Shown: positions 6,580 through 34,627, numbered from the stretch's first letter. The stretch is DNA of 34,627 bases from Deltaproteobacteria bacterium (GCA_016875095.1 VGSG01000044.1:1-34627); one strand, 5' to 3'. Notes: generated by a model from the letters alone, not told the origin. Translations and numbers: made by a program.

Positions 6580-6660
6580 CGAGGCCGCGAGGACCTGTAT
6601 TTCAAGCCAATCGGTTTCAAGCGCCCTACCGAAGTCCTCGGAGGGAGAAGGGGGTTGTGT

Positions 6661-14545: not shown

Positions 14546-15133
14546 ATGAGTTCACGTATGGGGCTCACGGATGAAGAGCTGGTCGGGCGAGCAAGAGAGG
14601 GCTCCGACGAGGCGTTTACGGAACTGGTGGAGCGCTACACTTCGCTCGTGTATCGGGTTGCGATCGGCATCACCGCTTCCGCTCCCGAAGCCGAAGAGGT
14701 CGTCCAAGAGACCTTCTTGAGAGTCTTCCGGAGTCTGGATCAATACCAGCCTACACGGGCAAGCTTCAAGACTTGGGTCCTGGCCATCGCTCGTAACCAG
14801 AGCATCAACGTGTACAGCTATCTCAAGAGGCGGGCGACCAGAGCATTCAGCGAAGTCTTCGGACACGAAACCGATTCAATGGAAGAGAATGTCGCTGCGG
14901 CCGAGAATTCGCACGACGCGGAATACTTGATGGCGAACAAGCAGGAGATGGCGAGGGTCCAGGCGGCGCTCAACGAGCTTCCGGAACGGCAACGCACCGC
15001 GCTTATGCTCAAAACGCAGGAGGAGCTGAGCTATGCGGAAATCGGCGTAATTATGGGAGCTTCAGCGTCTTCGGTGGAATCCCTGATCTTTCGGGCCAGG
15101 AAGAGGCTGCTGGAGATCATGGAAAGTGAATAA
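14546..15133 (+). CDS. RpoE-type ECF sigma factor
   Basis: A 195-residue ECF sigma factor. Region 2 (about residues 20-95) has EAEEVVQETFLRVFRSL and FKTWVLAIARNQ, which bind the -10 element; region 4 (about 130-190) has LNELPERQRTALMLK and an HTH with SYAEIGVIMGASASSVESLIFRARK, which binds the -35 element. ATG 14546 has GGAGG 12 bases upstream; an internal ATG at 14558 is possible. The gene for a zinc-binding anti-sigma factor follows after 132 bp, then two Spy/ZraP-like periplasmic genes, so the regulon probably responds to envelope or metal stress. An ECF-like promoter at 14380 would allow autoregulation. Confidence 0.92.
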   Translation: MSSRMGLTDEELVGRAREGSDEAFTELVERYTSLVYRVAIGITASAPEAEEVVQETFLRVFRSLDQYQPTRASFKTWVLAIARNQSINVYSYLKRRATRAFSEVFGHETDSMEENVAAAENSHDAEYLMANKQEMARVQAALNELPERQRTALMLKTQEELSYAEIGVIMGASASSVESLIFRARKRLLEIMESE

Positions 15134-15265
15134 GAGTCGGCGCGGAAGCTGTAAGACCGGACAAGGACGTGCGGGAGGATTTGTGAGGTCGGACACGCAG
15201 GTTTCTTGATTACGGCGCGCGGGATTCTCGCTTCCGCGAGGTATGCATATGTGGAGGAAGAGGTC

Positions 15266-15709
15266 ATGAGGTGCGGTGACTGTCAAAAGATCATCGTCAG
15301 GCTCGTGGATGGAGAGCTGGACGCCGGCGGCATGACAACCGTCCGGGAACACTTGTCGAGCTGCGCCGAATGCAGCGCTTTCCTGGAGAGAATGACGTTG
15401 CTTGACCGGAGCCTGAAGTCCATGCCACGCCATGAGCCCGGGATGTCTCTCGCGCGGATGGTGAAGGCTCGCATCGCTGAAGAAAAGCGGGGATCTCAGA
15501 CCTCAATCTTTGTGCCACGCTGGATCCAAGTTCCGGTTGCAGTGGCCTTGATCATGGTCGCTGTGGGCCTGGGGAACCTTGCGGGCCGGTCACTCACCGA
15601 GATTCTTGAAGGCCCCCCGCCGGACGCTAGTTTGGAGCTACTCGTATCTCCGCCGGGCATGTCCTTTGGAGAGGCCCTGGCTGAAATACAGGACCAGGGG
15701 AACAAGTGA
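15266..15709 (+). CDS. Zinc-binding anti-sigma factor with one transmembrane segment
   Basis: A 147-residue protein with an N-terminal zinc-finger anti-sigma domain (C-x2-C at the start, then H-x3-C-x2-C in HLSSCAEC), a linker, one membrane span near VPVAVALIMVAVGLG (residues about 90-108) and a short outer segment. It would hold the ECF sigma factor at the membrane until an envelope signal, possibly metal or redox state, releases it. ATG 15266 follows GGAGGAAGAGG. Its TGA overlaps the ATG of the next gene by one base, which indicates translational coupling to a periplasmic sensor-like protein. Confidence 0.88.
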   Translation: MRCGDCQKIIVRLVDGELDAGGMTTVREHLSSCAECSAFLERMTLLDRSLKSMPRHEPGMSLARMVKARIAEEKRGSQTSIFVPRWIQVPVAVALIMVAVGLGNLAGRSLTEILEGPPPDASLELLVSPPGMSFGEALAEIQDQGNK

Positions 15710-16245
15710 TGAAAAGGGGACTCTTCATAGCGCTGTTCGCCTTCTCCGTGGCTCTGAACATAGCAGTGGCCGGCACCTTAGCGTGGCATTTGTGGCTGTC
15801 CGACCGAAGCCCGGCCGCGGCAGCGGCGGTTCAGGGGCCGCTCACCGAAAGTGATTTCAGGACGATTCGCGGCATGTGGAAGAGCGACGGGCCACGTCAA
15901 CTCATGGAAAAGCGGCAGGTAGTCCTCCAGAAAAAGGCCGACCTGCTGGACCTTATCGCCGAAAAGCCCCAGGACCCCAAAGCCGCCGACAAGGCTCTCG
16001 ACGAACTGAACGCGCTCAAGGCCGAGGAAGAGCGAATGGCCGCAGAAAGAATCCGCCAGATCATGCAAGGTCTTCCTGAAGAGAAGAGGGCCGCTTTTCT
16101 CACTTTCCTCAAAGACCGAGCCTGCCCCATGATGGGCCCCGGCATGGGATGGAAAAGACAGATGATGGGACAGGGTCCCGGGTGGCGCGGCGGGCAGTGC
16201 ATTTGCCCCGTGCATCCCGCAGGGGTTCCCAAGCCCGCTGAATAG
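15709..16245 (+). CDS. Spy/CnrX-like periplasmic metal-resistance protein, membrane anchored
   Basis: A 178-residue protein with an N-terminal signal anchor (LFIALFAFSVALNIAVAG), then helical segments rich in charged residues (KADLLDLIAEKPQDPKAA and following) of the heavy-metal-resistance/Spy-CpxP family, and a Met-, Gly- and Cys-rich tail (CPMMGPGMG, GQCICPVHP) that could bind copper or another soft metal. CnrX-like proteins with this layout work with an anti-sigma factor to sense periplasmic metal. The position directly after the anti-sigma gene, overlapping it, supports that role. ATG 15709 is preferred over GTG 15706 (AGGGGA upstream). Confidence 0.82.
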   Translation: MKRGLFIALFAFSVALNIAVAGTLAWHLWLSDRSPAAAAAVQGPLTESDFRTIRGMWKSDGPRQLMEKRQVVLQKKADLLDLIAEKPQDPKAADKALDELNALKAEEERMAAERIRQIMQGLPEEKRAAFLTFLKDRACPMMGPGMGWKRQMMGQGPGWRGGQCICPVHPAGVPKPAE

Positions 16246-16462
16246 CAAGTCTGTAATTCTTCCCCGCACTTATACCAGTTGCCACAATTCTAGGTCTTTT
16301 GCGCGGCCGGCGCCAGCCAATGTCGGAGCAGCAATCGGACACTATTTTTGACACTCGCTGCTGAGGAATCCGAAAAAAGCTGAAAGTCAGCGCGGGATTC
16401 TCAGCTTCCTGCGGTATTGAGCGATAGAAACGCATTGAGCATGATTCAAAAGGAGATTCACG

Positions 16463-17002
16463 ATGAAAGTTGGCAAGGTGGTGGTTGTCTTGGCTGCTCT
16501 GGCATTGGTCGCATCTGCCGTGGTTGCTTACGCGGCTCCCCCATGCTGCGGTGGACCGGGTGGTTTTGGCCCCGGGTCTCAGGCATGGTCTAATTTGACT
16601 CCCGAGCAGCAGCAGAAGATGCAGTCTCTGAGACTGGAGTTCCTCAAGAAGACCGAGCCGTTGAGGGCTGAAATGAGCAAGAAGCGCCTGGAATTGATGG
16701 AACTCAATTCCTCGGCCAAGACGGACGAGGGGGCCATCGACAAGAAGAAGGAAGAGATCTGGGCTCTACAAGATAAGATGCGCAATGAGCAGCGGGCTAT
16801 GGACAAGTCCTTCCGGGAAGTGCTCACCCCTGAACAGCGGCGGCAGTACGGCTCATTCGGCCCTGGGATGGGCCCTGGATTCGGCCGCGGTTCCTGTGAA
16901 GGCGGATGCATGGGCCGCGGTCCGGGAGGATGCTGCGGCGGCTTAGGATTCGGTCGCGAGGCGGGCGGCAACCTCTCCATGCGAGCGCTCCGCACCCTTT
17001 AA
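16463..17002 (+). CDS. ZraP/Spy-like secreted metal-binding chaperone
   Basis: A 179-residue periplasmic protein: Sec signal peptide ending at VVAYA-A (about residue 24), then a Cys/Gly stretch (PPCCGGPGG), two LTPEQ motifs (LTPEQQQKM and LTPEQRRQYG) flanking a long helical hairpin, and a Gly/Cys-rich tail. This is the arrangement of zinc-resistance-associated ZraP and related Spy/CpxP proteins, which bind metals and act as ATP-independent chaperones. Start ATG 16463 follows AAAAGGAGATTCACG. It comes 217 bp after the CnrX-like gene, so it may have its own promoter; a weak GGAAT-N16-GTCAG at 16365-16390 resembles the ECF motif at 14380. A strong terminator follows the gene. Confidence 0.85.
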   Translation: MKVGKVVVVLAALALVASAVVAYAAPPCCGGPGGFGPGSQAWSNLTPEQQQKMQSLRLEFLKKTEPLRAEMSKKRLELMELNSSAKTDEGAIDKKKEEIWALQDKMRNEQRAMDKSFREVLTPEQRRQYGSFGPGMGPGFGRGSCEGGCMGRGPGGCCGGLGFGREAGGNLSMRALRTL

Positions 17003-20226: not shown

Positions 20227-20691
20227 CTATGACGCTTCCGATGCCATGCCTGCCGTGGGTTGCTTGGCTGTGCGGGAGTCAGCCAGAGGAGAGGGTCCCA
20301 GGATGCGGATCTTTTCCGTAAATTCAGTGACCACCTGGGCAAAACGAGGACCTTCCGCGGACGACACCCACTTGAGGAGCAGACGTTCCGGATCGACGCC
20401 TGAGAACGCCAGCAGTTTCCGCATGAACCCGATTCTCTTTACCGTCATGTAATTACCGTACAGGTAATGGCAATCTCCGATGTGTCACCCACCCACGAAG
20501 ACCCCATCAGCGCCTTTTTGAAAAGCCTTGAGGATCTGATGAGACCCCACGGTCGCAGAGCACAAGCTCCTGATCGTGCGTAAGTTAGGCGGATACTGGA
20601 GACGGCTCACGCCCGCTAGGTCGGCTCCCGCATACGCGCACCAGTTGCACAGGAACCCTACGATGGTCGGTTCAAACTGTTCCTCGGACAT
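20227..20691 (-). CDS. mvhD: MvhD-like [2Fe-2S] subunit, selenocysteine-containing (copy 1)
   Basis: A 154-residue protein once the in-frame TGA at 20485-20487 is read as selenocysteine (residue 69). MvhD links an electron-donating enzyme to HdrA through a [2Fe-2S] cluster. Visible ligand candidates are C15 and C18 ([21 protein letters not shown]), C44, Sec69 and C74 (GG-U-HIGDCHYLYGNY). Standard MvhD has Cys at position 69, and Methanococcus VhuD is a known selenoprotein there. Translation continues in frame after the TGA with conserved MvhD sequence (LLLKWVSSAEGPRFAQVV), so this is not a pseudogene. A hairpin 16 nt past the TGA fits a bacterial SECIS. ATG 20691 follows GGAG; the gene lies between the HdrA C-terminal gene and the FrhB-like gene. 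Confidence 0.93.
20452..20468 (-). promoter_or_regulatory. Putative SECIS hairpin, MvhD copy 1
   Basis: On the minus strand ATTACC-TGTAC-GGTAAT forms a perfect 6-bp stem with a 5-base loop, beginning 16 nt after the TGA. Position, size and a loop G fit the bacterial SECIS that recruits SelB. Confidence 0.7.
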
Positions 20692-20766: not shown

Positions 20767-22443
20767 TCAGCTCGCGAAGGCTTGCTCGATCTGAGCGTAG
20801 ATCTGTTCACTGGAAAAGCCGTCCAGCTTCGCGCTTTCCGAAGGGCAGGTAGCGGCGCAGCCGCCACAACCCTTGCAGAGCACCTTGTTTACCTGGCAGA
20901 TTTCCTTTTCCTCTACAAAACGAATAGCGCCGTACGGGCAGACATCCACGCATCCCAGGCATCCGCAGCAGGTCTCGGTATTTATGTCCGCCACTATTCC
21001 ACTGGTGAAGAGCGCTTCCTTTGACAAGACGATCGCGGCCCTGGACGCGGCCCCGAGACCCTGGGAGACAGCCTCCCTGATAGTAGCCGGAAAACGGGCG
21101 CTGCCGCAGAGGTAAACTCCGTCCGTGGCAAAATCAAGGGGCTTGAGTTTTACATGCCCCTCGAGGAAGAAGCCGTTTTCGTTCAGGGGGACCTTCAGCA
21201 TGGAGGACACATTCGCCGCGTCTTCTTGCGCTACCAAAGGCGTGGAGAGAACCACCAGTTCCGCAGGAATCGAAATCTCTTTGCCCATGCGCTGATGATA
21301 AACCTTGACGAAGTCCTCTCCTACCTGGGGAAGCTTGGCCGGGTCGTACGCCACGTAACGCACCCCAAGCTCCTTGGATTTGCGGAACATGTCTTCATTC
21401 TCAACGCCGTACATCATCATGTCCCGATAGAGGATCGTCACTTTGTTCCGGGAGTCGGCTTCCTTGAGCAGGATCGAGTTCTTAACCGCGGTCATGCAGC
21501 AGATGCGTGAACAATAGGTTCGTTCTGCGCAGCGAGAGCCGACGCATTGGACAATAACCACGTTCTTGGCCGCAGGCGCCCCCTGTTTGAGCAAAGCTTC
21601 AAGCTCCAGGTGGGTGATCACGCTCTTGCCGTTGTATCCAAACAGACCCTCGGGCTTGAGCGCCCGTGCGCCGATCGCTACGATTATCACTCCGGCCTTC
21701 ACTCGGTTTTCGGCGCTTTTTTCGCGAATGGTGACTACATAATTGCCCACGTAACCCTCGGCTTTGGTCACTTCCGACGACGTGTGGACTATGATCTTAT
21801 CGTTCGCGGAAATCCTAGCAGCGAGATCGTGCAGCAGACGTGAAGAAGGCTCGTTCGCGGGAAGGACGATGTTGAGGCTGTTCAAGAGGCCGCCAAGCTT
21901 TTCCTGCTTTTCCACCAGGTCTACCTCGTAGCCCATGTTGCCCAGGGCCATGGCCGCGGACATGCCGGATATGCCGCCGCCGATCACGACAGCCCGGTGG
22001 GAAATGCCCAGCTCGATTCGACTCAGCTCTCTGAGCCTGGCAGCTTTGGCCACTGCCATAGCGATCTGGTGCTTGGCTCTCTCCGTGCCTTTCTCACGCT
22101 CCCTCATATGGACCCACGAGCACTGGTCCCTGATGTTGGCCATCTCAAAAAGGTAGGGATTCAAGGCCGCTTCTTCGCACGCGCTCTGGAAGAGTGGCTC
22201 ATGGGTCCTGGGCGTGCAGGACGCTACCACAACTCGGTTAAGGTTATGCGTGGGAATCGCCTGTTTGATCTCGTTAATGCCGCTCTCGGAACAGGTGTAC
22301 AGATTTTCCTGCACAAAAACTACATTGGGTAAGGTCCGCGCGTAGTCTACCAGTTCCTGCATGGTCAGGTATCCCGCGATATTGGAACCGCAATCGCAGA
22401 TAAAAACGCCGATGCGAATTTCCTCTTTCTGGTTCCCTGTCAA
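20767..22443 (-). CDS. hdrA: HdrA, C-terminal half as a separate gene
   Basis: A 558-residue protein equal to the C-terminal half of the full-length HdrA at 25759-28791. It begins with the IGVFICDCGSNIAG domain, continues with a YTCSE and VVVASCTPRTHEPLF region, an FAD-binding Rossmann motif VVIGGGISGMSAA near residue 150, the VQCVGSRCAERTYCSRICC Cys cluster, and ends with two [4Fe-4S] ferredoxin motifs (CCGCLGCVDVCP and CKGCGGCAATCP). HdrA carries the FAD that bifurcates electrons. Start TTG 22443 follows GGGAGAG at good distance; longer frames to 22569 are not similar to HdrA. Its partner half, with selenocysteine, is encoded 223 bp upstream, so the two polypeptides probably assemble into one HdrA. 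Confidence 0.88.
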   Translation of the reverse strand: MTGNQKEEIRIGVFICDCGSNIAGYLTMQELVDYARTLPNVVFVQENLYTCSESGINEIKQAIPTHNLNRVVVASCTPRTHEPLFQSACEEAALNPYLFEMANIRDQCSWVHMREREKGTERAKHQIAMAVAKAARLRELSRIELGISHRAVVIGGGISGMSAAMALGNMGYEVDLVEKQEKLGGLLNSLNIVLPANEPSSRLLHDLAARISANDKIIVHTSSEVTKAEGYVGNYVVTIREKSAENRVKAGVIIVAIGARALKPEGLFGYNGKSVITHLELEALLKQGAPAAKNVVIVQCVGSRCAERTYCSRICCMTAVKNSILLKEADSRNKVTILYRDMMMYGVENEDMFRKSKELGVRYVAYDPAKLPQVGEDFVKVYHQRMGKEISIPAELVVLSTPLVAQEDAANVSSMLKVPLNENGFFLEGHVKLKPLDFATDGVYLCGSARFPATIREAVSQGLGAASRAAIVLSKEALFTSGIVADINTETCCGCLGCVDVCPYGAIRFVEEKEICQVNKVLCKGCGGCAATCPSESAKLDGFSSEQIYAQIEQAFAS

Positions 22444-22666: not shown

Positions 22667-24100
22667 TTACATCGCCAGCGCCAGGCCTCCGGTCATAACG
22701 ACTTCGGCCGCTCTGGCCGCCGCGCTGCTCGCCTGAGCCACGGATTCGGGGATGTCGAGCGGTCCTTGCGCGCATCCGCACGAGAAGATCCCGGGCACGC
22801 TGGTGTCTAGCGGCCTGTTGGGATGAGTCTTGATGAAGTTATTCTCATCCAGCTCAACCCCGAGCATCTCAGCCAGCGGATTAACGCCTTTGGGCGCGGA
22901 GCACGCGGTGGCCAGGATCACCATGTCCAGCGTCATGCTCTTGACTCGTCGCTCTTCGGTATCCTCGTAATAGACGATCGGGTTGTGCTCGTCGTCCTCC
23001 AGGATCTCCGCGACCCGGCCTCGGACGTACTTCAAGCCCGAAACCTTTTCCCCACGGACCTTGTATTCCTCAAAGCCTTTTCCCACGGTCCGCAAGTCCA
23101 TGTAGAAGATGTACGACTCGGTCTGCGGCTCGTGCTCCTTGGCGATGATCGCTTCCTTGATGGAATGCATGCAGCAGAAGCTGGAGCAATACTTGTGGAA
23201 GCGGAAATCCCTTGAGCCCACACATTGGATGAACCCGAGTTTCGTGGCGGTGTGATGCTTGTGAATCTGGGCTTCCAGCCACTTCAATTCAGCCTGAAAC
23301 CGGCCGAGATTTTCCATATCCTGATCCGTCTCGGCCTTCTTGATCCGCTTGGCAAGCTCTCTCACGCGGGCTTCCGCACGGATCGTGGAAGGCCGAGTCA
23401 GATGCCCTTTCGTGGGGCCGCCTGCGCTGAGCAAGCGCTCCATCTCAAGCGCGGAAATGACGTTCGGCAGTCGCCCATATCCGTATTCGGAAATCCGCGT
23501 GGCATCGAAGAGTTCGTACCCGGTCGATATGATTACCGCGGCCACATTGAGATCGACGAATTTCTCCTTTTGTTCGTAGTCGATCGCCTTTGCCTGGCAA
23601 GTTTTCGCGCAAACGCCGCACTTCTTGCCCTGAAAGATCCGGCAATGTGTCGGATCTATCGTGTATACGGACGGGATGCCCTGGGCATAATCCTTATAGA
23701 TGGCTTTGTGTTCGTCCAGGCCGAAGTTGAATTCGTTCGGGACTTTGGTGGGGCACTTTTCCGCGCACGCGCCGCACGCTGTGCAGCGGGAAGCTTCCAC
23801 GTACCGGGGCTTTTGTCGCACGCGGGCTCGGAAATCGCCTACTTGACCGGAGAACTCGATCAGTTCGCTGTAAGCCAGGAGATTTATCTTGGGATGTCGA
23901 CCGACATCCAGCAGCTTAGGCGACAGAATTCATATGGTGCAGTCATTGGTCGGAAAGGTCTTGTCCAGTTGGGCCATCTTGCCGCCAATACTCGGGTTCT
24001 TTTCCACCAGATGCGCTTGCAGGCCCATGTCTCCCAGGTCGAGAGCTGCCTGCATTCCGGCGATGCCGCCGCCGATGATCAATACGTCCTTTGAAGCCAT
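22667..24100 (-). CDS. hdrA: HdrA, N-terminal half, selenocysteine-containing
   Basis: A 477-residue protein when the TGA at 23930-23932 is decoded as selenocysteine (residue 57). The order is an FAD-binding motif [11 protein letters not shown] (7-16), [16 protein letters not shown] where C54 and Sec57 replace the CxxC of the paralogues, a [4Fe-4S] motif [11 protein letters not shown] (106-116), a second Cys group CGVCAKTC, then FIQCVGSRD and a C-terminal [11 protein letters not shown] segment. Residues about 240-285 form a charged, probably coiled-coil insertion missing from the other HdrA copies. Methanococcus HdrA is a known selenoprotein. Sequence on both sides of the TGA matches HdrA without any frame change. 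ATG 24100 follows GGAAGG. The C-terminal half is the next gene. Confidence 0.92.
23892..23909 (-). promoter_or_regulatory. Putative SECIS hairpin, HdrA N-terminal gene
   Basis: On the minus strand GGATGTC-GGTC-GACATCC makes a perfect 7-bp stem with a 4-base loop containing G, starting 20 nt after the TGA, as expected of a bacterial SECIS. Confidence 0.7.
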
Positions 24101-24157: not shown

Positions 24158-25288
24158 TCACACTTTGAGCGAACGGGCCAGAAGATCGTTTAGGTCCACG
24201 ATCTTCAGGTCCATCTCTACGTCCCGCAGAGCGCAATTCAGATGGAGCCTGCACTTGGAGCACGCGGTCACCAGATGACCCGCGCCTGAGGCGATTGCTT
24301 CTCGAAGTCGGGATTTCTGGATCTCTTTCGAGCAACTGGAGCAGCTCATCCACGCGCTCGTGCCGCAACAGATACCGTTCTCTCGATTGTGTTCCATCTC
24401 GATGAGCTTCAGCCCGGGCACGCCCTGCAAGAGAGCGCGAGGCGCATCCATGATGCCGGCCTGTCTTCCCAGACGACAGGGATCGTGGAAGGTGTAAACG
24501 CCGTCCAAGGGCTCGAAACCGAAGCGTCCCCGCTCGAACTCCTTTGCCAACAGCTCGTAGAAATGGACCACTTCAAAGTCCACTTCACCGATCACTTCCG
24601 GATAATACTTCTTAAAGGTTTGGTACCCTTCGGGGCACTGGAAGACCACCCGCTTGCATCCCAGGCTTTTGATCAGATCCACATTGAGTCGCGCGAGCTT
24701 CGCGAAATTCTCGTAGTCGCCGTTCCACATCAAATCGTGTCCGCAGCAGCGCTCGTCGTCATGGACCACCGGTTCGATTCCGATGGCGTTGAGCGCCTTG
24801 AGCACGCCGCGGGGGCCTTCCATCACGTCAATCGCCCAGTCTTCACGGAATTCCACATCGAAGTAGGGCGCGCATCCCACAAAGTAATAGGTGTCACCCG
24901 ATTCTGCGATCTTGCCCGCTTCTCTTGCCCAGTCGGTCTTGTTCTGCTTTACGTCGAGGGTCTGGAGCCGCATGACGCCCTGGAACAGGCCACGGTGGGC
25001 CGGAACGCCGCTGTGACCCTCGGTGACGGCCGCTTTTCGGACCTGGCGGACGAATTCGGGGTAATCGATCTTGGATGGGCAGCGTGCGCTGCACTGACCG
25101 CACGAAAGGCAGGACCATATATTAACGTCGTCATATGGGTTTTCCGCCTCTTCGATAAGGACTTTTTCCACCATCAAACGAGGCGAGAAATCCTGGGTCA
25201 CTCGGGAAACAGGGCAACTCCCGGTGCAAATACCGCAGTCAAGGCAATAGTAGGCTTGGGTCCTGTTGACGATTTCCGAGATGGTCAT
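24158..25288 (-). CDS. HdrC-HdrB fusion (HdrD-like) with a degenerate first CCG domain
   Basis: A 376-residue fusion. The HdrC part has two [4Fe-4S] motifs, C15-x2-C18-x2-C21-x3-C25 and C60-x2-C63-x2-C66-x3-C70. The HdrB part has two CCG domains, which in HdrB hold noncubane clusters that cleave disulfides. The second is complete (C271, C307-C308, C343-x2-C346). The first has C139 and C181-C182 but ends CPEG instead of CPxC, so one ligand is missing. The ATG at 25288 overlaps the TGA of the MvhD gene (ATGA), so translation is coupled. It is a paralogue of the separate HdrB and HdrC encoded further upstream, suggesting a second, different catalytic module in the same cluster. Substrate is unknown. 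Confidence 0.88.
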   Translation of the reverse strand: MTISEIVNRTQAYYCLDCGICTGSCPVSRVTQDFSPRLMVEKVLIEEAENPYDDVNIWSCLSCGQCSARCPSKIDYPEFVRQVRKAAVTEGHSGVPAHRGLFQGVMRLQTLDVKQNKTDWAREAGKIAESGDTYYFVGCAPYFDVEFREDWAIDVMEGPRGVLKALNAIGIEPVVHDDERCCGHDLMWNGDYENFAKLARLNVDLIKSLGCKRVVFQCPEGYQTFKKYYPEVIGEVDFEVVHFYELLAKEFERGRFGFEPLDGVYTFHDPCRLGRQAGIMDAPRALLQGVPGLKLIEMEHNRENGICCGTSAWMSCSSCSKEIQKSRLREAIASGAGHLVTACSKCRLHLNCALRDVEMDLKIVDLNDLLARSLKV

Positions 25289-25713
25289 GCCGCGGTCTCC
25301 CTCCGAGCCAGGGGACTCTGTCCGAGCTTCCGGATATCCTCGGTAAACTCGCGAATCACTTCTGCAAAGCGCTGCCCTTCTGAGGCGGATATCCATTCCC
25401 GTCGAAGTCGGTCGTCTTCAATCCCAAGCAGCTTCATGACCTCTCGGGTCTTATCGATCACTTTCTGCGCTTTCACATTACCTTCCAGGTAATGGCATTC
25501 TCCGATGTGTCAACCGGTTACCAAGACGCCGTCCGCGCCCTTCTCGAAAGCTTTGAGGATAAATCCCGGGGTCAACATTCCCGAACACATCAGCCGTATC
25601 AGGCGGATGCTGGGGGGATACTGTAAGCGGCTCACCCCTGCCAGGTCCGCTCCGGCGTACGAACACCAGTTGCACGCGAAGGCAATGATCTTCGGATTGA
25701 AGTCTGTAACCAT
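25285..25713 (-). CDS. mvhD: MvhD-like [2Fe-2S] subunit, selenocysteine-containing (copy 2)
   Basis: A 142-residue protein with the in-frame TGA at 25510-25512 read as selenocysteine (residue 68). Ligand candidates are C14 and C17 ([21 protein letters not shown]), C43, Sec68 and C73 ([14 protein letters not shown]). The sequence past the TGA is a normal MvhD C-terminus ([18 protein letters not shown]). It shares every key residue with copy 1 at 20227 but differs along its length, so the two are old paralogues, not a recent duplication. A 7-bp hairpin begins 15 nt after the TGA. It lies 45 bp after the full-length HdrA gene and overlaps the HdrC-HdrB fusion gene by four bases, so these three proteins probably form one unit. 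Confidence 0.93.
25476..25494 (-). promoter_or_regulatory. Putative SECIS hairpin, MvhD copy 2
   Basis: On the minus strand CATTACC-TGGAA-GGTAATG is a perfect 7-bp stem starting 15 nt after the TGA. Stem bases are shared with the copy 1 hairpin; the loop differs. Confidence 0.7.
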
Positions 25714-25758: not shown

Positions 25759-28700
25759 CTACGCGAGCGCGGCGTCGATCATGTCCGAAAGCTGCTCTTC
25801 CTTAAAGTGCCGAACAGCCGCCGCGCCAGTGGGGCACGCGACTGCGCACGCGCCGCAACCCTTGCACAGCGCGGGATTCACCGCGGATTTCATAGCGCCC
25901 GCGATCGCTTCCACCAGTTCCGGCGCATGGAAGGGGCACACCTCGACACAGCGGCCGCACCCTCGGCAGAGGAACTCATCCACCACTGAAATCATGCCGG
26001 GCGCGTCCACATACCCGCGGGCGAGAACTTGAGACGCATGAGAGCCGGCTGCTTCAGCCTGGGCGATGGTTTCATCCAGGGGTTTGGGATAATGAGCCAA
26101 CCCCGCCAGGAATACGCCGTCCGTGGCAAAATCCACCGGCCGAAGCTTCATATGCGCTTCCAGGAAGTATCCGTCTTCGTTCGTGGAAAGCTTGTACAGA
26201 CGGGCCAGTTCCTTGTTGTACTCGTCCGGTATGATCGCGGCCGCGAGCGCCACGCTGTCGGCTTCCAGTGTGACCGGCTCGTCGAGCACAGGGTCCTTGA
26301 CCTTGATCGCGATCTTGCGCCCAAGTTCCAGCAAGGGAGGATCTTCCGGCTCGTACCGGATAAAGACCACGCCCAGTTTCCTTGCCTTCTCGTAATAAGG
26401 CTCATTGAGGCCGTACGTGCGGATGTCTCGATACAGAACGAACACCTTCGCGTCAAGATTAGCTTGCTTCAGGGCCACCGCGTCCTTGACCGTGTGCGCG
26501 CAACAGACCTTACTGCACCACGGCCGCTCTGCGCACCGCGAACCCACGCACTGGATGAAGACCGTGGTACCTGCCTTCATCACCGCAGGATCGTGCGATC
26601 TCATGGCTTCGCTCATCTCCAGATGGGTCCTGATCCGAGTATCCTGTCCGTAAGCGTACACATCCGGCTTCCATTCGTGCGCGCCCGTGGCTACCACCAC
26701 AACGCCGTGTTCGATGGTCTCCGGCGCGGCCGCGCCCGAAGAGACAGTGGTCCTGAATTTGCCGATGAAGCCCTCCACATTCTGAATGGTCGCGTTGAAA
26801 CGCACGGAGATCTTCTCGTGAGCCGTCACCCGCTGAATCAGGCTTTGCAGGAAAGGCTGCACCTCCTCGCCTTTGATGGTATGGGCCAGCCTCAGCGCGT
26901 TACCTCCCAGAGCGTCCGTCTTCTCGAGAAGGTGAACCGGGAAGCCCTGGTCAGCCAGATTAACGGCCGCGGTCATGCCCGCGACGCCACCGCCGATGAC
27001 CAGACCCGCCTGGATCATCGGGAGACGCTGATCGTCAACCTTTTCGAGCTGAGTTGACCGGGCAATGGCCATGCGGATGAGGTCCACGGACTTATCGGTG
27101 GCCTTGGCCTTTTCAGTCATATGAACCCACGAGCAATGCTCACGGATATTGGCCATTTCCACTAGGTACTTGTTGAGCCCTGCTTCTCGCGCGGTCTCCT
27201 GGAAGAGGGGTAGGTGAGTTCGAGGCGTGCACGAGGCAATGACCACGCGGTTGAGGTTGTGCTCCTCAATAAGCTGCTTGATCTGAACCTGGGTGTCCTG
27301 AGAACAGGTAAAGAGGTTCTCGGTCGCGTACACCACGCCGGGGAGTTCCTTAATGCGTTCCACCACGCCGGGCACGTCCACGGTGGCTGCGATATTAATG
27401 CCGCACCTGCACACGAAGACGCCGATCCGCGGCCCTTGACCCTGGACGTCCTTCTCAGGCGGCAGCTCTTTCTCGGTGGTGAGTGTGTTTCGGGCTTCTG
27501 ATAGCATCCGGGTGGCGACTCCCGCGGCCGCGGCGGCCTCCATCACGGTCTGCGGAATATCTTTAGGCGCCTGGAATGCGCCGGCCACCATGATTCCGGG
27601 TCGGGACGCGCTGACCGGTTCAAAGGTTACCGTGTCACAGAAGTTCATCTCGTCGAGGTCGATGTTCAGGAGTCGGGCCGCCTTCACCGTCGATTCGGAA
27701 GGTTTGATCCCCACGGCCAGGACCACCATGTCGAATGTCTCGGAGATGAGCTGATTGTTCTCATTGACGTAGGTGATTTTCAGGTCGCGGCTGAGCGGAT
27801 TCTCCTCCACGCGACTCACCATCGAGCGAATGAAGCGCACGCCGCCCAGGCTCTTGGCGCGTTCGTAGTACTTGTCGAAGTCTTTCCCGTATGCGCGGAT
27901 ATCCATGTAGAAGATAGTGGGTTCAATGCGCGCGTCGTGTTCCCGCGCAATGACCGCTTCTTTGATCGAGGCCATGCAGCATACCGAGCTGCAATGCGGC
28001 ATCCCTTTTCTTCGATCCCGCGAGCCCACGCACTGTATCCAAGCCATCTTGCCGGGGTGTTTGCCGTCCGACGGTCGCTTGATCTCGCCCTGAAACGGTC
28101 CGGATGCGCTCAAGATGCGTTCCATCTCCAAGTTGGTGACCACGTTGGGCATTCTTCCGTGGCCGTATTCAGAGATGTTCGCGGTATTGAACAGTTCGTA
28201 GCCTGGAGCAAGAATCACCGCTCCCACATTGATTTCGGTGACCTTGTCTTGCTGCTCGTAATCAACCGCGCCTGCGGGGCAGACCTTCTTGCATACGCCG
28301 CACTTCTTTCCCTGGAAGGTTCGGCAGCGGTCCGTATCGATGGTGTAAACGGACGGGATGCCCTGGGCATAGTCCTTAAATATGGCTTTGCGCACGTCAT
28401 GGCCCCAGTTGTATTCATTGGGGACCTTGATGGGGCACTTCTCCGCGCAGGTTCCGCAGGACGTGCACTTGACCGGGTCCACATGCCGGGCTCTTTCGCG
28501 GACGGTCACGGAGAAGTTTCCCGGCTCGCCGGTGATGCCTTCGAGCACGCTGTAAGCCATTATTTCGATATTCGGATTCTGGGCCAAGGTCTGCAGCTTT
28601 GGTGAAAAGATGCACGCGGAACAGTCATTCGTGGGGAATGTCTTGTCCAGCATGGCCATCACCCCGCCAATGCAGGGTCGTTCCTCCACCAGATAGACCT

Positions 28701-28791
28701 TGAAGCCGGATTCGGCAAGATCCAGCGACGCCTGAACACCGCCGATTCCCCCTCCCAGCGTCAGGACCGCTCCTATCTTCTTGTGGTCCAC
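25759..28791 (-). CDS. hdrA: Full-length bacterial HdrA (1010 aa), bifurcating flavoprotein
   Basis: Contains both HdrA halves in one chain: an N-terminal FAD motif (LGGGIGGVQA, 12-21), NDC-SAC-IFSPKL with C57 and C60 (the position that is Sec in the half-size copy), a ferredoxin motif CTSCGTCAEKC (109-119), a second Cys group CGVCKKVC (164-171), [10 protein letters not shown], then from about residue 455 the IGVFVCRCGINIA domain, a second FAD motif [27 protein letters not shown] and two C-terminal [4Fe-4S] motifs (CRGCGRCVEVCP, CKGCGACAVACP). HdrA is the flavin site where electrons of different potential are split or joined with ferredoxin as partner. Start is GTG 28791, eight bases after GGAG. 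It sits between HdrB and MvhD genes, as expected for a core complex. Confidence 0.93.
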   Translation of the reverse strand: MDHKKIGAVLTLGGGIGGVQASLDLAESGFKVYLVEERPCIGGVMAMLDKTFPTNDCSACIFSPKLQTLAQNPNIEIMAYSVLEGITGEPGNFSVTVRERARHVDPVKCTSCGTCAEKCPIKVPNEYNWGHDVRKAIFKDYAQGIPSVYTIDTDRCRTFQGKKCGVCKKVCPAGAVDYEQQDKVTEINVGAVILAPGYELFNTANISEYGHGRMPNVVTNLEMERILSASGPFQGEIKRPSDGKHPGKMAWIQCVGSRDRRKGMPHCSSVCCMASIKEAVIAREHDARIEPTIFYMDIRAYGKDFDKYYERAKSLGGVRFIRSMVSRVEENPLSRDLKITYVNENNQLISETFDMVVLAVGIKPSESTVKAARLLNIDLDEMNFCDTVTFEPVSASRPGIMVAGAFQAPKDIPQTVMEAAAAAGVATRMLSEARNTLTTEKELPPEKDVQGQGPRIGVFVCRCGINIAATVDVPGVVERIKELPGVVYATENLFTCSQDTQVQIKQLIEEHNLNRVVIASCTPRTHLPLFQETAREAGLNKYLVEMANIREHCSWVHMTEKAKATDKSVDLIRMAIARSTQLEKVDDQRLPMIQAGLVIGGGVAGMTAAVNLADQGFPVHLLEKTDALGGNALRLAHTIKGEEVQPFLQSLIQRVTAHEKISVRFNATIQNVEGFIGKFRTTVSSGAAAPETIEHGVVVVATGAHEWKPDVYAYGQDTRIRTHLEMSEAMRSHDPAVMKAGTTVFIQCVGSRCAERPWCSKVCCAHTVKDAVALKQANLDAKVFVLYRDIRTYGLNEPYYEKARKLGVVFIRYEPEDPPLLELGRKIAIKVKDPVLDEPVTLEADSVALAAAIIPDEYNKELARLYKLSTNEDGYFLEAHMKLRPVDFATDGVFLAGLAHYPKPLDETIAQAEAAGSHASQVLARGYVDAPGMISVVDEFLCRGCGRCVEVCPFHAPELVEAIAGAMKSAVNPALCKGCGACAVACPTGAAAVRHFKEEQLSDMIDAALA

Positions 28792-28847: not shown

Positions 28848-29699
28848 TCAGATGAGCCCTTTGGACGCCAGTATTCTCTCAGGAGAGACCAGGTGCTTGC
28901 CAAACCAGCTCCGGGCCTGGGGATTCCCAAGGGCGACACCCATAAGCTCCGTCAGGTACACGATCGGTATCTGATACGCGTGCCCTGTTTCCCTGGAGAT
29001 GTCTTCTTGTCGGGTATCCAGGTTCGCCTGGCACATGGGGCAGAAAGTAACCATCACGTCCGCATCTACCATGAGCGCCATGTCCAGGAGCTTGCGAGAA
29101 AGCTTGAGCACCAGGTCCGTCCGCGTCAAGGCTAAAGAGCCCCCGCAGCAGTCCGTCTTGTACGGCCAGTCGAGAACCTCGGCGCCGAGGGCTTCCAGCA
29201 GACGGTCCATCTCCATCGGGTTCTCCGGGTCGGCAGGCTGGAGGATCTCCGGCGGTCGCACGGCAAGACAGCCGTAATACGGGACCACCCGCAACCCTTC
29301 CAACGGCTTGACGACCTTGGACTTCAGCGCGGCTCGCAGCTCGTCGCGGTGGAAGAGCTCCAGACCGGAGAGCACCTTGATCTCGCCCTTGAAGGGAAAA
29401 TCCCGCCTGAGGGCTTCGTCTTCACCGATACGATGCGCGGCGGCTTTGAGCCGCAGATGGCACGCGGCGCAGGGCGCGACCACATCCCGGGCCAACTCCT
29501 CGGCCAACAGAAGATCGCGGGCCGGGAGAGCGCTCTCCAGGTACGCATCCACCATGTGTGCGGACGATGCGCCACAACAGGTCCAATCAGGCAGTTCTTT
29601 CAGCGTTATTCCCAGCGCAGACGCCGCATTGGTAAACGACTCGTTCAGCTCCTGCGCAGATCCTGTCAACGTGCATCCCGGATAATAACTGAGCTCCAT
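28848..29699 (-). CDS. hdrB: HdrB-like subunit
   Basis: A 283-residue HdrB with two complete CCG domains: C9, C41-C42, C77-x2-C80 and C144, C184-C185, C220-x2-C223. In methanogens these hold two noncubane [4Fe-4S] clusters that reduce the CoM-S-S-CoB heterodisulfide. Bacteria lack these thiols, so the true acceptor is unknown; proposed partners in sulfate reducers include DsrC-type disulfides, and none is encoded here. ATG 29699 follows GGAAGGAA. It lies 16 bp after hdrC and 56 bp before the full-length hdrA. Confidence 0.93.
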   Translation of the reverse strand: MELSYYPGCTLTGSAQELNESFTNAASALGITLKELPDWTCCGASSAHMVDAYLESALPARDLLLAEELARDVVAPCAACHLRLKAAAHRIGEDEALRRDFPFKGEIKVLSGLELFHRDELRAALKSKVVKPLEGLRVVPYYGCLAVRPPEILQPADPENPMEMDRLLEALGAEVLDWPYKTDCCGGSLALTRTDLVLKLSRKLLDMALMVDADVMVTFCPMCQANLDTRQEDISRETGHAYQIPIVYLTELMGVALGNPQARSWFGKHLVSPERILASKGLI

Positions 29700-29715: not shown

Positions 29716-30264
29716 CTACTTGAGCGAAGATTTCTTGAAGATCTCTTTCACGGCGTTGTTCCCGAAGGGAAATTTGGGCATGATATGCATCTTCCCCTTG
29801 CGGAACATTTCCAAGCCCAGCTTCATATCGGCGAACCAGGTCTTGGTCTTCATCTTGTACATCCCTACCAAGGAGAGTTCATGCACTCGGCCGAACCGGC
29901 GAACATTCTGCATAAACGTGGTGTGGAACGCGGGCACCTGGGGCTGCTGGGTCTCAATCTTGCCTGCCACCACTTGGTGTCGGATATGATCCAGAAGCGC
30001 GGGCACGTCGATCCCGTTCGGGCATCTCGCGCCGCACGTATGACACGTGAGGCACAGCCAGATGCTCTGGGAAGAGACAATCCGCTCCACATCACCCAGA
30101 ACCCCCAGCCTCACCATCTGATGCGGCAGGAGATCCATTTCCGACGCCACGGGGCATCCCGCGGAACATTTCCCGCACTGGTAACACCCGTTGATAACCG
30201 ATGCCAGCTCACCCGCGGGAGCTGTCACCTTGCCACTGGAAGCACGCATGTTTGACTGTTCCAT
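29716..30264 (-). CDS. hdrC: HdrC-like subunit
   Basis: A 182-residue protein with two [4Fe-4S] motifs, C27-x2-C30-x2-C33-x3-C37 and C71-x2-C74-x2-C77-x3-C81, in the usual HdrC arrangement, then a basic helical C-terminus. It passes electrons from HdrA to HdrB. There is no membrane segment, so the complex is predicted to be cytoplasmic. Start is uncertain between ATG 30264 (GGAG immediately adjacent) and ATG 30249. It begins 92 bp after the HdrA-GltD fusion gene and is followed closely by hdrB. Confidence 0.92.
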   Translation of the reverse strand: MEQSNMRASSGKVTAPAGELASVINGCYQCGKCSAGCPVASEMDLLPHQMVRLGVLGDVERIVSSQSIWLCLTCHTCGARCPNGIDVPALLDHIRHQVVAGKIETQQPQVPAFHTTFMQNVRRFGRVHELSLVGMYKMKTKTWFADMKLGLEMFRKGKMHIMPKFPFGNNAVKEIFKKSSLK

Positions 30265-30356: not shown

Positions 30357-33300
30357 CTACGACGCGGCCCCGAGAAGCGTGTCGATTTCCTCAAAGACCT
30401 GCTCGTCCGTAAAGTGCTGCAATTGGATCGCCTTCCCGGGACAGACCGATGAGCAGATGCCGCAGCCCTGACAGAGCGCGGGCACTATCTCGGCCTTGTG
30501 CTGCTCGTTGATGAACGGAGCGCCGTAAGGGCACAGCCGCACACACGTGAGGCAGACTGCGCATTTTTCCGGCTCCACCTTTGAAATAACGCCTGCGAAC
30601 GTCATCTCTTTCTTGCTGAGCAGGAGGGATGCTCTCTGGGCTGCGGCGGTTGCTTGCGCGATCGACTCATCGATCGGTTTGGGGTAGTGCGCCATTCCGG
30701 CCAGGAATACCCCTTCCGTGGTGAAGTCCACAGGTCGCAGCTTCATGTGGGCTTCCACGAAATAGCCGTACGAATTGGTGGTCACCTTGAAGAGCTGGCT
30801 GATTTCCTTGTTTCCTTCCTCGGGATCAATGGCCGCGGCCAGAGTCAGCACATCCGCGGGGATCGTGATATCCTGGTCAAGCGCCGGATCTCGCACAATC
30901 ACGTTGACCTTATCGCCAACCGCTTCAACCCTCGGTTTGGCTTCCGGGTCGTACTTGATAAAGACCGTGCCCGCTTTACGGGCTTCCTGGTAGTACTTTT
31001 CCAGGAGGCCGTAGGTGCGCAGGTCTCGGTAGATGACGTAGCTCTTCATGTTGGGGTTGATTTCACGCAGCCGCAGAGCAAGTCGGACCGAACCGGAACA
31101 GCAGATCTTCGAACAATAAGGCCGCTCGTCGCAACGTGACCCCACGCACTGAATGAAGACCGCATTCTTAAGCTCTTTGAGCTTGGGATCGCCCGCTTGA
31201 ATCCGCTCTTCAAGCGAGTGCTGCGTCTCCACCGCCTTGTGCTCGCCGTAAAGGTACTCGGTCGGCTGAGATTCCCTCGCGCCCGTCGCGACGATAGCCG
31301 CGCCGAACTCCACCTGTCGGGATCTGCCGTCAAGCTGATAGATCGTGCCCTTGAAGTGGCCCACATGGCCGGAAAGATCGCCGAAGAAGGCTTCCTTGTA
31401 AAGGTCGATCTTCGGATGACCCTCCACTCTTGCGATCAAGTCACTCACAAAGGGCTTGATCTCTTCTCCGTGAATGGTCTTCTCGATGTACAGGGCATTT
31501 CCGCCCAGCTTGTCCGACTTCTCCACCAGGTACACCTGGAAGCCTTGATCGGCCAAGTTCAGGGCCGAAACCATCCCGCTTGCTCCACCCCCCAAAACCA
31601 GAGCGTTGGAGACCACTTCCATCTTGGATTTCTGCAATGGAGCCAGCAACGCGGCCCGCGCCACTGCCATCCTGGCCAAGTCCATCGCCTTGAGCGTGGC
31701 TCGTTCTTTGTCGTACCCGTGCACCCAGGAGCACTGATCCCGAATATTGGTCATGGTGAAGAGGTACGGGTTCAGCCCGGCCTTCTCCATAGTCAGTTGA
31801 AACATGGGCTCATGAGTCCGGGGGCTGCACGCGGAGACCACCACTCGGTTGAGATTGTGCTCCCGGATAATCTTAAGGAACTCCTCCTGCGTATCCTGCG
31901 AGCAGGAGAAGAGTTTCTCCGCGGCGTACACCACGTGAGGCAGGTCCTTTACGTGCTCCACCACTCGGGGCACATCCACCACATTGGCGATATTGATCCC
32001 GCAACGACAAATGAAGACGCCTATTCGAGGCTCTTCACCGACAACGTCTCTCTGGGGTGGGAATTGCTCCTTGGTGGTCAATGTATTGCGCGCGGAAGCG
32101 AGGAGCCGAGACGATGCGCCTGCGGCCGCGGAAGCTTCCATGACCGTCTGTGGGATATCCTTGGGACCCTGGAGCATCCCGGCCACAAACACGCCCGGGC
32201 GGCTGGTTTCCACCGGCCTGAAGCTGTCTGTTGACGCAAAGAACGATTCATTGAGGTCTATGCCAAGCTTTTCCGAAAGCTCTCGCGACTCGCTCGACGT
32301 GGTCAAGCCGGCCGCGAGCACTACGAGATCGAAAGGCTCGGTCGTAAGCTGCTGGTTATCATCCACGTAGGTGATGTTCAGGTTGTGGGTCTTTGGGTCT
32401 TCCACCACTCGGCTCACCATGGACCTGATGAATCGCACGCCGCCTTGGTTCTTGGCTCGCTCGTAGTATGCGTCAAAGTCCTTCCCGTACGCGCGCATGT
32501 CCATGTAGAAGATGGTGGGTTCCACATTGGGGTCATGCTCTTTTGCAATGACCGCTTCCTTGATGGAAGCCATGCAGCAGACCGCGCTGCAATGCGGCAT
32601 TCCATGCTGCGGGTCCCTCGATCCCACGCACTGAATCCATGCGATCTTTTTCGGGTGATGCCCGTCTGAAAGACGCTTCACCTCACCCGCGTACGGACCC
32701 GATGCGCTCAACATGCGCTCGAATTCCATGTTCGTGATCACGTTCGCAGCCGCGCCGTATGAGAATTCGCCCCGAATTTTTGACGGATCGATCAGCTCAT
32801 ACCCGGTAGAGAGGATGATGGTCCCCACATCCACCTCCCGATAGTCATCCTCGATGGAATGATCGATGGCGCCGGCGGGGCAAGCCTTCACGCACTCCAT
32901 ACACTCGGAGCAGACACCGCAGTTGAGGCAGCGGTTGGCTTCTCTGAGCGCCTCTTCTTCGGAAAAGGCCAGCTCAACCTCATCGAAGTTCTTCATCCGC
33001 TCCGAGATCGAAAGCTCGGGATTGACCGCCCTGGCCTCGGCTTTCATCTCCGGAATGGGCGGATATTCACGGTGTTCAGGCGTCTTAACGGGACGTCCCG
33101 CGGCCACGTCTTCGCCACGGAGATATCGGGTGATTGATACAGCCGCTTCGTGGCCCGCGCCCACAGCTTCCACGACCGTTGCCGGCCCTGTTCCTGCGTC
33201 ACCTCCTGCGAAAACCCCATCGATTGCAGTTGCGGCGGTGACCGGATCGACTTGGATCGTGTTCCACGGGCTCCTTGCCAGACCGGGCGCGCCTTCCCAC

Positions 33301-34627
33301 AGATCAGGATCGATCACCTGTCCGATCGCCGGTATCACCGCGTCGGTCTCTATCACAAACTCAGAGCCTTCAACCGGCACGGGTCGCCGACGACCGGTCT
33401 GGTCGGCGGGACCAAGCTCCATCCTGATGCACTGAATTCCCCGAACCGCGGCGCCGCCGTCGGTCATCACTTCCACAGGCGCCGCCAGGAACTGGATCTT
33501 GACGCCTTCCTCCAGCGCGGCCGAAACCTCCTCAACGTATGCGGGCATCTCGTCACGAGACCGCCTGTACAGGATCGTCACCTCGTCAGCGCCAAGCCGA
33601 ACCAGTGTGCGGGCCGCGTCGATAGCGACATTTCCACCGCCGATGACCACAGGCTTCTTGATATTGTTGGGGGAAGCGCCCAGCGCGGCCTGTCTCAGGA
33701 AGTCCACGCCTTGGATCACACCTTGGGCTTCTTCGCCCTTTATGTTCAGCGTGGCGCCCTTCTGACAGCCGACGCCAAGATAGATTGCTTTGTAGCCCTG
33801 AGCCTTGAGGTCGGTGATGGTCAGATTGGGCCCGAGCTGCATATTCGTCCGCGCGTCCACTCCGAGGTTTAGGATGTGTTGGATCTCTTTGTCGAGCAAC
33901 TCTCTCGGTAGGCGGTATTCCGGAATGCCCACCCGAAGCCAGCCGCCCAGGACCGGCCCGGCTTCGAAGATGGTAACCTTGTATCCTTCCAGGGCCAGAT
34001 AGTAAGCGCACGAAAGGCCCGCGGGACCGGAGCCTATAACGGCCACTTTTTCAGGTTTCGGCTGTATTTCCGGAAGCGTAAGCGTTGAATAGTCGATCTG
34101 ATCCGCCGCGAAGCGTTTCAGCTTGCAGATTGAGACCGGCTGATCTTTGAGACCTCTGCGGCAGACCTTTTCGCACGGGTGCGGACAGACACGGCCCAAG
34201 ACCCCCGGCAAAGGCAGATTCCTGTAAATAAGCTCGACGGCTTCTTTGTATTTGCCCTTGCTGATCAGCGCCACATAGCCTTGCACATTGATGTGGGCCG
34301 GGCACGCGATCACGCAGGGCGCCCGATCGGCCTTATCGATGACGAACGATTGCGGTATGGTTTGCGGAAATAGCCTGTAGGTCGCAGCTCGGTCGCTGAT
34401 ATTCTGGTCGAACTGGTTAGGAACCGCGACAGGGCACGCGGTGGCGCAGTCGCCGCACGCCTTGCACTTGTCCTTGTATATGTATCGGGACTTCTGACGG
34501 ATCCTGACCTTGAAGTGTCCCTCGTCGCCCGCGACATCGTCCACTTCGCTGTATGAGAGCAGTTCGATGTTGGGATTTTGTCCGACACTGACCAACTTGG
34601 GAGAGAAAATGCACGTCGAGCAGTCAT
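30357..34627 (-). CDS. hdrA: HdrA with an inserted GltD/NfnB-like NAD(P)H oxidoreductase module (5' end outside window)
   Basis: At least 1422 residues are visible; the frame is open at the window edge, beginning DCSTCIFSPKL, so the N-terminal FAD motif lies outside. Counting from the leucine codon at 34595: a ferredoxin motif CKACGDCATAC (44-54); then, at the place where other HdrA proteins have their second Cys group, an insertion of about 470 residues (95-565) with CPHPCEKVC, an FAD motif VIGSGPAGLS (187-196), a nucleotide-binding VIGGGNVAID (317-326) and GGDAGTGPATVVEA, the signature of glutamate synthase small subunit and NfnB. HdrA then resumes with [22 protein letters not shown], a second half with IGVFICRCG, LVLGGGASGM and two terminal ferredoxins. 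The insertion probably gives this HdrA direct NAD(P)H access. It is the first visible gene of the cluster. Confidence 0.92.
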   Translation of the reverse strand, partial: DCSTCIFSPKLVSVGQNPNIELLSYSEVDDVAGDEGHFKVRIRQKSRYIYKDKCKACGDCATACPVAVPNQFDQNISDRAATYRLFPQTIPQSFVIDKADRAPCVIACPAHINVQGYVALISKGKYKEAVELIYRNLPLPGVLGRVCPHPCEKVCRRGLKDQPVSICKLKRFAADQIDYSTLTLPEIQPKPEKVAVIGSGPAGLSCAYYLALEGYKVTIFEAGPVLGGWLRVGIPEYRLPRELLDKEIQHILNLGVDARTNMQLGPNLTITDLKAQGYKAIYLGVGCQKGATLNIKGEEAQGVIQGVDFLRQAALGASPNNIKKPVVIGGGNVAIDAARTLVRLGADEVTILYRRSRDEMPAYVEEVSAALEEGVKIQFLAAPVEVMTDGGAAVRGIQCIRMELGPADQTGRRRPVPVEGSEFVIETDAVIPAIGQVIDPDLWEGAPGLARSPWNTIQVDPVTAATAIDGVFAGGDAGTGPATVVEAVGAGHEAAVSITRYLRGEDVAAGRPVKTPEHREYPPIPEMKAEARAVNPELSISERMKNFDEVELAFSEEEALREANRCLNCGVCSECMECVKACPAGAIDHSIEDDYREVDVGTIILSTGYELIDPSKIRGEFSYGAAANVITNMEFERMLSASGPYAGEVKRLSDGHHPKKIAWIQCVGSRDPQHGMPHCSAVCCMASIKEAVIAKEHDPNVEPTIFYMDMRAYGKDFDAYYERAKNQGGVRFIRSMVSRVVEDPKTHNLNITYVDDNQQLTTEPFDLVVLAAGLTTSSESRELSEKLGIDLNESFFASTDSFRPVETSRPGVFVAGMLQGPKDIPQTVMEASAAAGASSRLLASARNTLTTKEQFPPQRDVVGEEPRIGVFICRCGINIANVVDVPRVVEHVKDLPHVVYAAEKLFSCSQDTQEEFLKIIREHNLNRVVVSACSPRTHEPMFQLTMEKAGLNPYLFTMTNIRDQCSWVHGYDKERATLKAMDLARMAVARAALLAPLQKSKMEVVSNALVLGGGASGMVSALNLADQGFQVYLVEKSDKLGGNALYIEKTIHGEEIKPFVSDLIARVEGHPKIDLYKEAFFGDLSGHVGHFKGTIYQLDGRSRQVEFGAAIVATGARESQPTEYLYGEHKAVETQHSLEERIQAGDPKLKELKNAVFIQCVGSRCDERPYCSKICCSGSVRLALRLREINPNMKSYVIYRDLRTYGLLEKYYQEARKAGTVFIKYDPEAKPRVEAVGDKVNVIVRDPALDQDITIPADVLTLAAAIDPEEGNKEISQLFKVTTNSYGYFVEAHMKLRPVDFTTEGVFLAGMAHYPKPIDESIAQATAAAQRASLLLSKKEMTFAGVISKVEPEKCAVCLTCVRLCPYGAPFINEQHKAEIVPALCQGCGICSSVCPGKAIQLQHFTDEQVFEEIDTLLGAAS

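Follow-up and report, generated by a model that had tools for sequence, protein, structure and literature searches.

A GltD/NfnB-type module inserted in the ferredoxin domain of a double HdrA from a Deltaproteobacteria bacterium

The hdrL gene and the architecture of its product

We analysed a stretch of 34,627 nucleotides from a Deltaproteobacteria bacterium (GCA_016875095.1), hereafter the window, which is the whole of contig C44 (VGSG01000044.1) of a 4.7 Mb genome. At its edge lies hdrL, a gene whose product carries a GltD/NfnB-type module within HdrA. The minus-strand open reading frame (30357-34625) has no closed end and reads off the contig edge. The final 127 bases of the window recur exactly at the end of another contig of this genome, C21, and joining the two contigs gives a protein of 1479 amino acids with the N-terminus MAQPKDVVGAALVVGGGIAGVQ, in agreement with the more than 1420 residues expected in a preliminary description of the locus. 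In relatives at 76-79% identity the entire gene is found on a single contig, and a paralogue on contig C86 of the same genome (52% identity, identical architecture) is also whole on one contig. The second GltD-inserted double HdrA of the genome (L007 1294-5748) is flanked by hdrB and mvhD. Residue numbers below are those of the translated product P0001, residue r corresponding to window base 34625-3(r-1). The parts of the gene, including the motifs for flavin adenine dinucleotide (FAD), nicotinamide adenine dinucleotide (phosphate) (NAD(P)) and iron-sulfur (Fe-S) clusters, are as follows.

30357..34625, minus strand: hdrL, HdrA (core 1)-GltD insert-HdrA (core 2); full length 1479 amino acids, the N-terminal 57 on contig C21
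34329..34625, minus strand: HdrA core 1, first part (residues 1-99); C5 equivalent to Cys197; first ferredoxin-domain cluster motif C54-C57-C60-C64
32913..34328, minus strand: inserted GltD/NfnB-type module (residues 100-571), circularly permuted (family and structure matches)
34116..34316, minus strand: Fer4_20 part of the insert with C104, C108, C147, C151, C155 and K170, the last equivalent to StnC K170 (family match, conservation)
34017..34034, minus strand: FAD Rossmann motif GSGPAG of the insert
33561..33641, minus strand: NAD(P) Rossmann motif GGGNVA (329-334) and YRR (353-355) of the insert
32877..32930, minus strand: junction motif RC566LNC569GVC572SEC575MEC578VKAC582P; C566/C569 predicted GltD cluster ligands, C572-C582 predicted second HdrA ferredoxin cluster
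32076..32912, minus strand: HdrA core 1, second part (residues 572-850), with cluster cysteines C666, C679, C683 and C684 (match to solved HdrA, conservation)
31626..32036, minus strand: HdrA N-terminal cluster domain of core 2 (residues 864-1000)
30591..31625, minus strand: HdrA core 2, thioredoxin-reductase-like FAD domain without ferredoxin insert; Arg1181 replaces Lys409
30372..30590, minus strand: C-terminal two-cluster ferredoxin domain, all eight cysteines kept

The host protein was assigned by HMMER alignment to the solved HdrA of Methanothermococcus thermolithotrophicus (5odc_A). Residues 1-99 align to 193-291 of that chain, 572-791 to 293-512, 864-1051 to 2-189 and 1276-1417 to 505-649; because of these segments the protein is read as a double HdrA, with two FAD cores in one chain. 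Core 1 has no N-terminal cluster domain but retains both the inserted ferredoxin domain and C5, the equivalent of Cys197, whereas the N-domain cysteines of core 2 (C873, C875, C908 and C933) complement C5 of core 1, which is the type II HdrA pattern. This complementary pattern resembles the fused HdrA of Moorella and of anaerobic methanotrophic archaea (ANME), although the order of the halves is unlike that of the ANME fusions (PMC9012536). In many homologues a TGA, read as selenocysteine, stands at the C5 position.

The extra stretch comprises 472 amino acids (residues 100-571) between the two cluster motifs that core 1 has in its ferredoxin domain, so that the roughly 470 residues noticed earlier are indeed internal rather than terminal. 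They had been thought to replace the region between the two Fe-S motifs. The position was correct but replacement was rejected, as the flanks match residues 291 and 293 of 5odc_A, contiguous in the solved HdrA, and HdrA keeps essentially all of its residues: the module is an insertion. The three flavin domains foreseen were recovered as three FAD/Rossmann modules (GltD, HdrA core 1 and HdrA core 2), and the "at least five" Fe-S motifs grew to cysteine sets for about nine [4Fe-4S] clusters, with a predicted tally of two per ferredoxin domain, two in the insert, one per core and one shared through C5.

A permuted GltD/NfnB fold with its cofactor residues in place

The GltD/NfnB nature of the insert was borne out by matches to GltD/NfnB-type families, including PRK12771, GltD and NfnB (E values 1e-92 to 1e-166), and to the solved chains of StnC, NfnABC, NfnB, GltD and DPD. 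When HMMER was run on the NfnB chains 4ylf_B and 5jca_L, residues ~102-505 of the insert aligned to the NfnB body and its last stretch, ELSISERMKNFDEVELAFSEEEALREANRCLNCG, to the NfnB N-terminus. Because the C-terminal end of the insert aligns in this way, the insert is a circular permutation of NfnB in which the cut falls between RCLxC and APC. The permuted order is shared by StnC and the NfnABC large subunit, which align collinearly with the insert. No published account of the circular permutation was found in a literature search, most subscription papers lying outside its reach.

The whole GltD/NfnB fold is present in the insert, together with the residues for FAD, NAD(P) and Fe-S clusters; an absence of FAD and NAD(P) contacts was looked for and not found, both motifs being intact. 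A single cluster in NfnB and DPD is ligated by the cysteines of RCLxC together with that of APC (C79, C82, C87 and C140 in DPD). By homology with these proteins, C104, C155, C566 and C569 would form one cluster of the insert, C572-C575-C578-C582 would form the second HdrA ferredoxin cluster, and the FAD-proximal cluster would use C108, C147, C151 and K170. The permuted order has the consequence that the insert's own [4Fe-4S] motif runs straight into the motif of the second HdrA ferredoxin cluster. Since C569 and C572 are three residues apart, the GltD and HdrA ferredoxin clusters should, on geometric grounds, be neighbours, and a continuous electron wire from the insert into the HdrA ferredoxin domain is predicted. 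As for K170, cryo-electron microscopy and mutation in StnC, whose FAD is non-bifurcating, showed the equivalent lysine to be important for the FAD-proximal cluster, a position held by Glu in NfnB (PMC10482914).

Conservation was assessed in 88 full-length homologues. Each listed cluster cysteine of the insert and of core 1 is invariant or nearly so: the junction motif is invariant, and C54-C64 are kept in all 87 homologues having these positions. The K170 position is Lys in 80 of the 88 and His in the other 8, with no NfnB-type Glu ligand. R238, equivalent to the N5-contacting Arg of NfnB (R201), is kept in 88/88, and the GxGxxA and YRR motif in 82/88; overall, between 82 and 88 of the 88 sequences retain the FAD and NAD(P) motifs. 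In core 1, E636 and K689 correspond to E356 and K409 of solved HdrA, the Lys/Glu bifurcation residues, and both are present in every homologue.

An AlphaFold2 model was made on the homologue L067 (64% identical; first 1055 amino acids; 38-row alignment), with a mean predicted local distance difference test score of 87.8 and a predicted template modelling score of 0.81. VIA-align superposed the model on HdrA 5odc_A (Z 49.6, root-mean-square deviation 1.6 A over 421 residues, model 1-898) and on NfnABC 9bov_A (Z 50.9, 1.8 A over 472 residues, model 154-640), and Foldseek ranked the same families first. Against NfnB/NfnL (4ylf, 5jca) the deviation was 1.4-2.1 A over about 400 residues. The HdrA and GltD/NfnB modules are thus both modelled, on this 64%-identical homologue, as retaining their folds.

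Relation to known proteins

Any novelty implied by the preliminary description did not hold, as the architecture has been published as HdrL (2009), as HdrA9-11/NfnB fusions of ANME-1 (2022) and as type III HdrA (2025). HdrL of Desulfobacterium autotrophicum HRM2 was described as a fusion of heterodisulfide reductase and glutamate synthase that has a site for NADH (PMC2702500), NfnB insertions break the ferredoxin domain of HdrA9-11 (PMC9012536), and in type III HdrA, with GltD inserted, electrons from NADH were proposed to enter through GltD (PMC12054007). The present protein has the features of this group: a thioredoxin-reductase-like core with an Fe-S cluster, GltD in the ferredoxin domain, and FAD and NAD(P) motifs. 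It resembles HRM2 HdrL (PMC2702500), a large HdrA/GltD fusion compared here by its published description; in HRM2, too, hdrL and hdrA occur in tandem at a locus together with hdrB and hdrC. Each HRM2 hdrL, unlike ours, is followed by mvhD, and two are selenoproteins, whereas here C5 is Cys and hdrC-hdrB follow. With type III HdrA (PMC12054007) and HdrA9-11 (PMC9012536) it shares the interruption of the ferredoxin domain by GltD/NfnB and the same functional proposal; the described archaeal type III proteins have single-core patterns, whereas the present protein, with its two cores, combines type II with type III.

StnC and the NfnABC large subunit (8oh5, 9bov, 9n5u) likewise hold a permuted GltD inserted in a host Fe-S protein and feeding a separate bifurcating flavin, and the Lys170 cluster ligand, shown for StnC, is common to it and the insert. 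Their host, however, is NuoG/FdhF-like with bifurcation on a HydB-type flavin mononucleotide, whereas here the host is HdrA with its FAD. NfnB/NfnL (4ylf, 5jca) has the same FAD, NADP(H) and two-cluster fold but is unpermuted (RCLxC at the N-terminus), has a Glu cluster ligand and is a separate subunit with NfnA that bifurcates by itself. What distinguishes the present locus is the order hdrL-hdrC-hdrB without an adjacent mvhD and an insert-less sister paralogue in the same cluster.

Gene neighbourhood

The genes that follow hdrL are listed below.

29716..30264, minus strand: hdrC (family match)
28848..29699, minus strand: hdrB, two CCG domains with both CCG cysteine sets (family match)
25759..28791, minus strand: insert-less double HdrA, 1010 amino acids, sister of hdrL in the trees (family match, trees)
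25288..25713, minus strand: mvhD/flpD with in-frame TGA (Sec) at 25510-25512, context G-UGA-HIG-[ED]-CHYL
22667-24100, minus strand: HdrA core 1 without GltD insert; TGA (selenocysteine) at 23930-23932, the Cys197-equivalent position
20767-22440, minus strand: separate HdrA core 2 gene, forming with 22667-24100 a split version of the double HdrA
20229-20691, minus strand: second mvhD/flpD with in-frame TGA at 20485-20487, context G-UGA-HIG-[ED]-CHYL

The cluster thus runs hdrL, hdrC, hdrB, insert-less double HdrA, Sec mvhD, an hdrD-like gene, Sec HdrA core 1, separate core 2 and second Sec mvhD, so that mvhD shares the cluster (25288-25713) without adjoining hdrL. It is kept in a relative (G312), with hdrC and hdrB directly after hdrL. 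Another relative (G386) has hdrL and hdrB, and its hdrC match is split over two frames (L148 14778-15300), which looks like a frameshift, possibly a sequence error or real; mvhD was not found near this hdrL in the stretch searched. In 60 of the 66 named related loci whose downstream sequence is long enough, the next gene is mvhD, and hdrL-hdrC-hdrB is therefore the less common order. The in-frame TGA of both mvhD/flpD genes is likely selenocysteine; the genome encodes tRNA-Sec, and also DsrC. Gene callers would truncate both genes. In the insert-less double HdrA, the second ferredoxin cluster motif is unusually spaced.

Proposed electron path and its alternatives

Taken together, the evidence makes it probable that this HdrL-type HdrA works with the downstream-encoded HdrC and HdrB, with NADP(H) wired through the insert to core 1 in a bifurcating or confurcating reaction. 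NADP(H), or less likely NADH, would exchange hydride with the insert's FAD, from which single electrons would pass to the FAD-proximal cluster (C108, C147, C151, K170) and then to the second cluster (C104, C155, C566, C569). They would continue through the HdrA ferredoxin-domain clusters (C572-C582, C54-C64) to the FAD of core 1, where the Lys/Glu pair is kept, and one branch would lead from HdrC to HdrB and a disulfide, perhaps the DsrC trisulfide. The GltD flavin would serve, as in StnC, as a non-bifurcating converter of hydride to single electrons. NADP(H) appears the likelier nucleotide because GxGxxA and YRR resemble the NADPH-binding StnC and Nfn sequences. The preliminary description had proposed that NAD(P)H is coupled to HdrA bifurcation in one chain; the coupling to HdrA is very plausible given the intact cofactor residues and abutting [4Fe-4S] motifs, while for bifurcation the signs are sequence marks in core 1, the Lys409 and Glu356 equivalents.

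Several points weigh against this proposal. The NADP(H) assignment is drawn from motif resemblance, and NADH was proposed by the authors for relatives (PMC2702500, PMC12054007). No biochemistry for any GltD-inserted HdrA was found in the literature searched. The Lys409 position of core 2 is Arg here (Lys in 60/88 homologues). In addition, the ferredoxin domain in its capped form may have lost the ability to reduce ferredoxin, which would leave a plain NADPH:disulfide reductase.

Such a linear, non-bifurcating NAD(P)H:disulfide oxidoreductase, running from the insert through HdrA to HdrC-HdrB without ferredoxin, would suit the interruption of the ferredoxin exit domain by the insert, the Arg in core 2, and hdrL-hdrC-hdrB without mvhD in G386 and without adjacent mvhD here. 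We consider it unlikely, as the core 1 Lys/Glu of the bifurcating site is kept throughout the 88 homologues, all eight cysteines are present in the C-terminal ferredoxin domain, and mvhD lies directly downstream in most related loci. A double bifurcator, in which the GltD flavin would also bifurcate in the manner of NfnB, is improbable: the NfnB-like fold and the invariant R238 would allow it, but the proximal cluster has a StnC-type Lys (or His) instead of the NfnB Glu, and StnC is non-bifurcating despite the same Arg (PMC10482914). A structural or vestigial insert without redox role, which the existence of an insert-less sister paralogue in the same cluster might suggest, is very hard to reconcile with cofactor residues kept across 88 sequences. 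An assembly chimera, conceivable for a gene divided between two contigs, was rejected as hardly credible in view of the exact C44/C21 overlap, the intact insert-bearing paralogue on another contig and the single-contig relatives at 76-79% identity.

K170, C566, C569 and K689 make the proposed electron path testable. Sulfate reducers and syntrophs live close to the thermodynamic limit and have to keep their pools of NADPH, NADH, ferredoxin and thiols in balance, and one chain joining NADPH oxidation to HdrA would form a direct junction between these pools. StnC and NfnABC take in NADPH through the same permuted GltD module, which points to one reusable cassette. We tentatively propose that Desulfomonilaceae-like HdrL-HdrC-HdrB could be a hydrogenase- and MvhD-independent, NADPH-driven bifurcating disulfide reductase, in which NADPH enters at the port where ferredoxin exits in methanogens and the NADPH module is a removable cassette differing between sister genes of one cluster.

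Distribution and history of the insert

The same architecture was sought in 395 sampled genomes of the phylum. Among the matches listed (150 rows), every one was near-full-length, and by hand count they fall in at least about 115 of the 395 genomes; a rare architecture was thereby rejected. Named loci belong to Desulfobacterota, Bacillota (Pelotomaculum, Formimonas), Chloroflexi, Aminicenantes, Cloacimonadota and one Euryarchaeota metagenome-assembled genome, and insert-bearing single-core versions also occur.

In core 1 trees, the HdrL proteins of the family group as the sister clade of the insert-less HdrA from the same cluster (support 100/99). The cassette would therefore have come in or dropped out after a duplication at family level, unless it was swapped through gene conversion. 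The trees mix insert-bearing with insert-less genes, and well supported branches force at least 4 to 6 changes; a single clean origin of the insert is unsupported, and gain and loss appear inseparable on these trees.

Elsewhere on the contig, an aldehyde ferredoxin oxidoreductase gene lies at 6655-8667 (plus strand), and 14546-17002 (plus strand) encodes in a row an extracytoplasmic function (ECF)-type sigma factor, a zinc-finger anti-sigma candidate and two metal-resistance-like proteins.

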